Shown here: positions 46,042 to 51,533 of the stretch, piece after piece
How the letters are laid out: each line of letters begins with the position of its first letter
Numbering within the stretch: the stretch's first letter is position 1
NCBI RefSeq assembly: GCF_000963885.1
Contig: NZ_BALE01000010.1
Location: forward strand, 186,001-250,000
Source: Tanticharoenia sakaeratensis NBRC 103193
GTDB lineage: Bacteria > Pseudomonadota > Alphaproteobacteria > Acetobacterales > Acetobacteraceae
Direction of reading: 5' to 3'
Length of the DNA stretch: 64,000 nt
The notes under the pieces: model-generated
What the model saw: only the letters and a program-made list of their open reading frames with translations
The model's database searches: none
What the model was told of the DNA's origin: nothing
Program-made: the position numbers and the translations under genes

Positions 46042-46515
46042 TCAGCGGTAGGCGACGGTCAGGATCTCGTATGTCCGATCGCCGCCGGGGGCGGGGACGG
46101 AGACGCTGTCGCCGACGCTCTTGCCGATCAGCGACTTGGCGAGCGGGCTCGAAATCGACAGCAGGCCCTGCTTGATGTCGGCCTCATGCACGCCGACGAT
46201 CTGATAGGCGCTTTCCTTGTCCGTCTCTTCGTCCACGAGCTGGACGTGCGCGCCGAACTTCACCTGATCGCCTGAAAGCTGCGACGGGTCGATGACCTCG
46301 GCCGTCGAGATCAGTTCCTCGAGTTCCAGCACGCGTCCCTCGATGAAGGACTGCCGGTCGCGCGCTGCATGGTATTCCGCGTTTTCCGACAGGTCCCCAT
46401 GCTCCCGCGCTTCCGCGATCGCGCGAATGACCGCCGGACGATCTTCCCCCTTGAGGCGGCGGAGCTCGTCTTCGAGACGGACGAGGCCGTTACGGGTCAT
46501 GGGTATCTTCTGCAC
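46042..46515 (-). CDS. greA: Transcription elongation factor GreA
   Basis: Rescues backtracked RNA polymerase by stimulating cleavage. 157 residues with the N-terminal coiled coil (DELRRLKGEDRPAVIRAIAE, GDLSENAEYHAARD with the tip acidic residues) and the C-terminal FKBP-like domain (ISSPLAKSLIGKSVGDSVSV). First gene of greA-ilvA-queC-transporter. The 287 bases upstream have no gene and presumably hold its promoter. Confidence 0.97.
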   Translation of the reverse strand: MQKIPMTRNGLVRLEDELRRLKGEDRPAVIRAIAEAREHGDLSENAEYHAARDRQSFIEGRVLELEELISTAEVIDPSQLSGDQVKFGAHVQLVDEETDKESAYQIVGVHEADIKQGLLSISSPLAKSLIGKSVGDSVSVPAPGGDRTYEILTVAYR

Positions 46516-46802: not shown

Positions 46803-48203
46803 ATGTCGTGCATGGACTGGTTCTGTCTTTCCCATACGGGCCATCCGGTCGTGCTCGACCGGCAGCAGCAGGTGTTCAGATGCGTGCCCTGGGACCAGGC
46901 GGACCCGCAGGATTTGCTGCTGTGCGCGCCTCTGTCGGCAGCGCAGGGTCCGGTTTCGGTGCGCGACGACGCGGGCATTCCGCATGCCTTGGCCGGCTAT
47001 CATACAATCGTGGCACAGCACGCCGGCGCGGCCGTGAGCGGACATCTGCTGGCTGATGCCCGGTTCGGCTGCGCACGTCGGCCGGGCGATGTGGTGACGT
47101 TCGATCGGGACGAGCCGCACGCGTGGGAGACGTTCATCTTCGCCCCGTGCGACTGGTTCGAGGCCCTGCGTTCGCGCCTGTCCGGACGGCTCCTGTCCAT
47201 CGACCGCCACGAGTTGCTGACGATCGAGACCTCGATTGACGCGGGGCAACTGCGCACAGGGAATGCGCGGTTCGATCTGGTCACCAATCTCGAAGCGTTC
47301 GCGCAATTCGACCGGGCGCTGGTCCTGCGTCAGGAGGGATATCGGTTCTCGATGTTCCGCCGCTATCGGCCGCTGGTCTATTTTGCCTGTTCAGGCGAGC
47401 CGCCAGCGTTCGAGCTGTTGCGGGAGAGTTTGCGTTCGCTGACCCGGACCGGGCGGTATGACGGCGATATCTGCATCATCACCGACCGGATCGAACTCGC
47501 GGCCGGTCTCGCGGCCGATTTTCCCAATCCGATCACCGTCCTGTCCGTCGAGCTTCCCGACAGCGACGACTATTATTTCGCGCGCTACCGGATCTTCGAC
47601 CTGCCGGATTTCGAAACGTACACCGCCGTACTTTATGTTGATACAGACGTCATTTTTCAGGACGACGTCCACATCCTGCTGCGAAGGATCTGTCTGTCGC
47701 ACGGGATCTGCGTCGGCAGCGAGGAATACGAGGACATCATCGTCGTCCCGGTCTCGCTGATCGATGTCGCACCGTCTCTCGGAAGTCACCTGTTCGCAGG
47801 CGATCCTTTCCGGACCGGCTACCGATACGGGTTCAATTCCGGGATCATCGGCTTCGCGCCGTCGCCTGCCGTGGAGCAGGCGTTCCGGCTTGTCCTGGAG
47901 ACGAAGGAAAGACTGCTGGCCGACGGGCGTCGGGAGCTGGACCAGCCAGTTTCGAACTACGTTTTTCGCAAATGCGAGCTGGTCGATTTCACGACCATCT
48001 CAGGCTATGTCGCCGTCGGTGCGAAGGATGCCATCCATTATCACGCACGGCCCGCCGAACGCTGCGTGATCGTGCATTTCTGGCGCGTGGCGGCAGCCGA
48101 ACGCCACGCGGTCATGCAGCGCGTCAATGCGTATCTCGCTGCACGCCACGCCCTCGATGCGGATCTGGCGCTGCCGATTTTCTCGCCGCCCGCGCGGCGC
48201 TAG
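46803..48203 (+). CDS. GT8-like glycosyltransferase with unrecognised N-terminal domain
   Basis: A 466-residue protein with no signal peptide or membrane helix. The C-terminal part (~180-440) looks like a GT-A fold of the GT8 type: YFACSGEPPAFELLRESLRS, ICIITDRIE, a DxD in YVDTDVIFQDD (about residue 280), FNSGIIGFAPS, LDQPVSNYVF and a late His motif (CVIVHFWR). The first ~170 residues (VRDDAGIPHALAGYHTIVAQ, FGCARRPGDVVTF) look beta-rich and match nothing I know. The gene is transcribed against carB and lies between carB and greA. Substrate unknown. Confidence 0.7.
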   Translation: MSCMDWFCLSHTGHPVVLDRQQQVFRCVPWDQADPQDLLLCAPLSAAQGPVSVRDDAGIPHALAGYHTIVAQHAGAAVSGHLLADARFGCARRPGDVVTFDRDEPHAWETFIFAPCDWFEALRSRLSGRLLSIDRHELLTIETSIDAGQLRTGNARFDLVTNLEAFAQFDRALVLRQEGYRFSMFRRYRPLVYFACSGEPPAFELLRESLRSLTRTGRYDGDICIITDRIELAAGLAADFPNPITVLSVELPDSDDYYFARYRIFDLPDFETYTAVLYVDTDVIFQDDVHILLRRICLSHGICVGSEEYEDIIVVPVSLIDVAPSLGSHLFAGDPFRTGYRYGFNSGIIGFAPSPAVEQAFRLVLETKERLLADGRRELDQPVSNYVFRKCELVDFTTISGYVAVGAKDAIHYHARPAERCVIVHFWRVAAAERHAVMQRVNAYLAARHALDADLALPIFSPPARR

Positions 48204-48235
48204 GGCAGTTCGGCAGATCCTGCCTGCGAACTGCC
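48204..48235. terminator. Hairpin terminator between convergent glycosyltransferase and carB
   Basis: Outer stem GGCAGTTCG (48204-48212) / CGAACTGCC (48227-48235) with a further inner GGCAG/CTGCC pairing. It begins right after the TAG stop of the plus-strand gene, with a weak T-containing tail; it probably ends both transcripts. Confidence 0.6.
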
Positions 48236-48278
48236 GTTGCTTCCTGTTTCGCCGACGGCGTGTGCTCCGCGGGGCGCG

Positions 48279-51533
<3,255 letters not shown>

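Follow-up and report, generated by a model that had tools for sequence, protein, structure and literature searches.

A GT8-like glycosyltransferase gene with a predicted CBM92/fascin-like N-terminal module, inserted between the presumed carB and greA genes of Tanticharoenia sakaeratensis

The gene and its insertion site

The window, a stretch of 64,000 nucleotides from the genome of Tanticharoenia sakaeratensis NBRC 103193 (3.5 Mb in 94 contigs), contains one open frame for a protein of 466 amino acids in which a GT8-like catalytic part follows a predicted CBM92/fascin-like module, and whose strand is opposite to that of both flanking genes, as the original prediction had stated (Table 1). We take the latter to be carB and greA, and the names carA, ilvA, uvrA, ssb, rlmN, tlyA and dxs used below are likewise our own assignments, read from the sequence. 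A chance open reading frame can be ruled out because, within the same family, 47 of 397 genomes (its own included; 23 of 102 genera; 70 places) have a match at E<=0.001. No signal peptide was recognized by eye, and the AlphaFold2 (AF2) model of the whole protein, made from six sequences, has a mean pLDDT of 64, falling below 50 at residues 128-180. The NCBIfam scan of the protein returned one chance match only and the Rfam scan of the whole window nothing useful; a promoter scan gave one promoter-like site against 0.4 expected, and a terminator scan detected none, the inverted repeat of Table 1 included.

Table 1. Features of the gene, its product and its neighbours in the window
Feature	Position	Strand	Basis or remark
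greA (presumed), divergent neighbour	46042..46515	-	name assigned from sequence
Gene of module-bearing GT8-like glycosyltransferase	46803..48203	+	ATG start, 466 aa, one open frame
Predicted CBM92/fascin-like beta-trefoil module, ~residues 1-118	46803..47156	+	N-terminal profile against PDB, leave-one-out, profile-profile match
R102, six residues before W108	47106..47108	+	Arg there in 11/22 N-termini
W108-E109, aligned with the CBM92 Trp-Glu glucose-contact motif	47124..47129	+	W 22/22, E 20/22
Linker or small subdomain, ~residues 119-185	47157..47357	+	low model confidence; alignment
GT-A catalytic domain, ~residues 186-450	47358..48152	+	structural matches of model
DxD motif, D280-T281-D282	47640..47648	+	sequence; alignment
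H425	48075..48077	+	invariant in 19 rows
Inverted repeat, possible terminator of convergent genes	48199..48240	+	begins in the gene's last codons; weak, z -1.7
carB (presumed), convergent neighbour	48279..51533	-	name assigned from sequence

Among the genomes examined, the position of the gene is peculiar to the window lineage. In all 17 other genomes of the same family that were examined carB and greA are adjacent and the 466-residue gene is absent. Nine genomes from outside this closer circle contain a match to carB, and in eight of them the two genes adjoin, none of these loci holding the gene. This comparison reached up to 1.5 kb on either side of each carB-greA locus and left out one locus (L069) at a contig end, which carries a second carB piece with no greA within reach; none of the 59 other genomes considered belongs to the genus of the window genome. 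A gene conserved at this site throughout the family is thereby ruled out, and the gene is an insertion between carB and greA, as had been proposed. In a genome of another genus (G132), where carB and greA are adjacent too, the carA-carB-greA-ilvA locus is followed, about 1.3 kb past ilvA, by a distant homologue (L087, 7268-8632 and 9955-16402); its nearness can be chance, since the homologue search gave 70 places.

The window genome has two paralogues, each lone among unrelated genes, one between uvrA and ssb and the other between rlmN and tlyA-dxs. A recent duplication of these is ruled out by the tree of the catalytic part (35 rows), in which the window gene groups elsewhere, with the gene of Gluconacetobacter tumulisoli and that of a further genome (G273), at support 99/98; the position of the paralogues themselves is unsure because of long branches in the tree. 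The closest relative found is that of G. tumulisoli, with 36% identity over residues 6-453.

The catalytic part and the N-terminal module

The C-terminal part of the protein is a GT-A, GT8-like glycosyltransferase. The DxD announced by the original prediction is present, and in an alignment of 19 full-length sequences, the 466-residue protein included, hand-chosen among 35 homologues whose start was clear and whose N-terminus was complete, D280, D282, D380-Q381, N385-Y386 and H425-F426 are invariant, H425 standing where the metal-binding histidine of GT8 would be expected. The Pfam GT8 family (PF01501) matches the protein with E 0.0045 and 17 bits, below the gathering cut-off of 24.3, and at E<=1 it matches 10 of the 19 family members, this protein among them, with a best value of 2.9e-10. 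Foldseek with the AF2 model retrieves GT-A enzymes, blood-group transferases appearing from E 1.3e-6, and VIA-align places LARGE1 (7zvj; Z 14.2, 216 residues, rmsd 4.2) level with UGGT (5mzo; Z 14.2, 217 residues, rmsd 3.8), the blood-group transferases lying within 1 Z of both. Since blood-group transferases, which we take to be GT6, and UGGT match about as well as LARGE1, whose catalytic domain we take to be GT8, the fold by itself is not diagnostic of GT8. The likeness to GT8 consists in the modelled GT-A fold, the DxD and the C-terminal histidine, all of them present, whereas identity to LARGE1 is 17% and the Pfam score stays under its threshold; no described GT8 enzyme with such an N-terminus was found in the searches made.

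The N-terminal part had been described as beta-rich and unrecognized; the former agrees with the AF2 prediction, whereas the latter gives way to a strong assignment, made by profile comparison, to the CBM92/fascin-like beta-trefoils. Pfam, Fascin (PF06268) included, gave no match for this N-terminus, and a PDB sequence search with the single protein gave nothing useful; at E<=10 Pfam Fascin matches 2 of 22 N-termini, at best with 8.4e-4. The full-length profile of 19 rows already reaches the CBM92 structure 7zoh at 3e-4 through its N-terminal stretch. A profile was made of 22 N-termini hand-chosen from the 35 homologues by the same two criteria (A6; omitted were L002, L003 (wrong coordinates), L006, L008, L017, L019, L022-L024, L026-L028 and L030); it finds the Chitinophaga CBM92 crystal structures 7zoh (E 3.1e-9) and 7zoi (7.1e-9), known as CpCBM92B and CpCBM92A, respectively. 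The direct match spans about 40 residues, and its value of 3e-9 is attained by adding up three repeats with single values of 0.07 to 30. When the 466-residue protein is left out, the remaining 21 rows recover it with E 2.8e-9 (for one sequence), the best of 2000 shuffles reaching 3e-4.

Structural models say less about this part. In the model of the whole protein, block pLDDT values over residues 1-120 range from 59 to 86; modelled alone, the domain is poor (pLDDT 56), too weak for a verdict on the fold, and its Foldseek matches, mostly trefoils, begin at E 0.026, and the Foldseek and VIA-align lists for the whole model span residues 128-447 and are therefore uninformative on the N-terminus.

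All three repeats of both 7zoh and 7zoi align their Trp-Glu motif with W108-E109. According to PMC11039641, a Trp of CBM92B stacks with the sugar, O3 and O4 are contacted by a Glu, and O2 is contacted by an Arg in one subdomain; in our alignment the place that we read as that of this cleft Arg, six residues before the Trp, holds Arg in two of the repeats of 7zoh and Ser in one, as is described there, and the spacing of R102, as we read the alignment, appears to be the same. The likeness to CBM92 comprises the profile relation, the Trp-Glu motif and this Arg, and the difference lies in the number of sites, three there against one here: residues 1-125 contain no Trp-Glu other than W108-E109, and among the N-termini of the 22 relatives two pairs occur in 4 and none in 2. 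A weak fascin stretch (2.0 bits) aligns a Trp-Glu as well, so that the pair alone is no proof of a sugar cleft; the best-scoring fascin stretch is without it.

Distribution of the enzyme and of its module

The full architecture is bound to the family in the samples searched, since in the class sample of 190 genomes the 19-row profile at 1e-10 matches two, both of the same family. Named sources of homologues are Gluconacetobacter tumulisoli, Acidisoma cellulosilyticum, Acidisoma silvae, Acetobacter cibinongensis and an uncultured Acetobacteraceae bacterium. Searches of genome contigs and of plasmids with the 466-residue protein alone, and of viral contigs with another homologue subgroup, gave nothing useful; a subgroup relative retrieved one plasmid, of Acetobacter aceti, on which a homologue is flanked by genes of IS5 family transposases (L041, 6487-11327). 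The surroundings of 16 loci (103 called proteins, some of them doubtful antisense calls) point to no single pathway, the first 25 of 173 neighbour families including, in raw counts, GT2 3, GT61 2, GT2_4/GT92 2, GT4-type 2 and GT_PLOD 1. In one Acidisoma genome the homologue has as neighbours a GT61 gene and the bcsD-bcsC part of a cellulose cluster (L084, 8048-15213).

The module also occurs on other enzymes. The N-terminal profile detects it in 43 of the 200 genomes sampled from the family, in 3 of 289 of the class sample (2 of them of the same family) and in 5 of 299 of the phylum sample (again 2 of the same family), a contrast to be read with the fact that a profile built from sequences of the family favours detection there. 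Of the six copies in the window genome, GT8-like proteins carry three and GT2_4/GT92-type proteins the other three, and on other proteins the module stands at the N- or the C-terminus. Twenty other module proteins, a hand-picked subset of the matches whose frames were taken from stop to stop, were scanned with Pfam: 16 exceeded a cut-off, of which 15 did so for a glycosyltransferase family (GT2_4/GT92 6, GT61 3, GT90 4, GT4-type 1, Gly_transf_sug 1) and one for a methyltransferase alone, and four gave nothing above a cut-off; one of the four GT90 proteins carries a methyltransferase too. The company kept is biosynthetic, unlike that of CBM92, which according to PMC11039641 is found "in almost every case" with glycoside hydrolases or lyases. 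A literature search, judged mainly by titles, found no paper on a fusion of such a CBM92-like module with a glycosyltransferase.

A second profile, of 23 modules from other proteins (A8), likewise hand-picked and including one row (L125) that by eye may hold another GT8-like domain, finds 7zoh at 3e-21 and 7zoi at 1.1e-19, followed by human fascin (2.7e-9), designed trefoils (from 1.5e-6) and hisactophilin (5.2e-4), whose match spans profile positions 12-111 of 133 and so almost all of the module. Compared directly, the two profiles align over 113 columns with a probability of 99.4, although the modules of the second were preselected for likeness to the first, having been found with it, and the invariance of the Trp-Glu pair in its 23 rows is subject to the same choice. 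A text pattern applied to 49 module copies, themselves found with a profile prominent in Trp-Glu, recorded the Trp in 45, the Glu in 41 and the Arg in 26; it took a wrong Trp in L102 and perhaps in L121, and 4 of the 49 gave no Trp site.

Possible role of the module

We consider it fairly probable that the protein is a cytoplasmic, metal-dependent GT8-like GT-A enzyme whose one-site CBM92/fascin-like trefoil holds the terminal sugar of the acceptor. The nucleotide sugar would be held through a metal ion by D280, D282 and H425, and the cleft of R102, W108 and E109 would receive the terminal sugar of an acceptor glycan, glucose-like by analogy with CBM92, such that the enzyme might stay on, or select, acceptors that are already glycosylated, be they intermediates of a surface polysaccharide or glycosylated surface proteins. 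It would then belong to a group of biosynthetic enzymes, largely confined to the family, that have the module in common, and its gene would have entered the carB-greA interval of the window lineage as a single unit. A comparable arrangement is that of the polypeptide GalNAc-transferases, animal enzymes of GT27 in which a catalytic GT-A domain is joined to a ricin-type trefoil whose ligand is a sugar that the acceptor already carries; the pairing of domains is alike, whereas the trefoil there is C-terminal and of CBM13 type.

A sugar cleft has to be reconciled with the loss of two of the three CBM92 sites and with the absence of the Glu from 2 and of the Arg from 11 of the 22 N-termini, and the retention of a single site would also suit a trefoil that serves as a structural or protein-protein module, in the way that fascin binds actin, with W-E-x-F as a core motif and a shared partner or scaffold. 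The fascin matches of the second profile and the weak fascin stretch with its aligned Trp-Glu agree with such a module, and a common partner would explain its presence on enzymes of different chemistry; we nevertheless regard it as rather unlikely, for CBM92 aligns the pair in all three repeats while the best-scoring fascin stretch does not have it, the pair is invariant in the 23 preselected rows, and an Arg at the same spacing is common among the copies. It is still less to be expected that the gene, which according to the original prediction was perhaps acquired, is a recently acquired foreign one, passively carried. Its unique position among the genomes examined, its patchy spread over the family and the plasmid homologue amid IS5 transposase genes would fit; yet its codon usage is ordinary (rank 14 of 49 among the called genes of the window; 0.650 against a mean of 0.678, sd 0.078) and hence lends no support to a recent foreign origin, which this and the 36% identity of the closest relative test weakly, and furthermore the frame and the catalytic residues are intact, the module occurs mainly within its own family and two further paralogues have been kept.

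That the acceptors are specifically secreted surface proteins with a Hint_2 domain, which the module enzymes would glycosylate in the cytoplasm, seems improbable to us and is a lead, no more. Among the matches listed, 5 of the 27 places at which the protein family occurs in 15 hand-chosen genomes have a Hint_2 match no more than 5 kb away, against 0.83 expected (Poisson 0.0017, or 0.010 for four), and in the window genome a module-bearing GT92-type gene adjoins a Hint_2 gene (L122, 1992-3698 and 3806-5383). However, the idea was prompted by two of these same loci; without G272 and G152, in which they lie, and G202, whose locus is orthologous, 2 of 22 places remain against 0.6 expected (P 0.12), again among the matches listed; 22 of the 27 places have no Hint_2 match nearby among those listed; and of the 9 Hint_2 matches in the window genome the list includes one and shows none close to the window gene. 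A wider and rather doubtful generalization would have the Acetobacteraceae adapt to biosynthesis a sugar-binding module otherwise known from degrading enzymes, making it a one-site "glycan reader" that serves GT8-like, GT61, GT90, GT92-type, GT4 and methyltransferase enzymes that recognize a common sugar end, possibly on Hint_2 proteins, in a family-wide glycosylation system. Should the same cleft indeed recur on the transferases of one family, it would account for stretches at either terminus that are still unassigned in many glycosyltransferases of that family, and W108 offers a single residue with which to test whether an acceptor-bound sugar guides these enzymes.

Two further observations concern module loci. 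Two frames of about 200 amino acids (L134, 3799-4419 and L135, 3824-4441) comprise little beyond the module, and at another locus (L124, 1192-2625) the neighbour of a module protein is a GT2_4/GT92-type enzyme that has an F5/F8 type C domain, which is sugar-binding-like, in place of the module.
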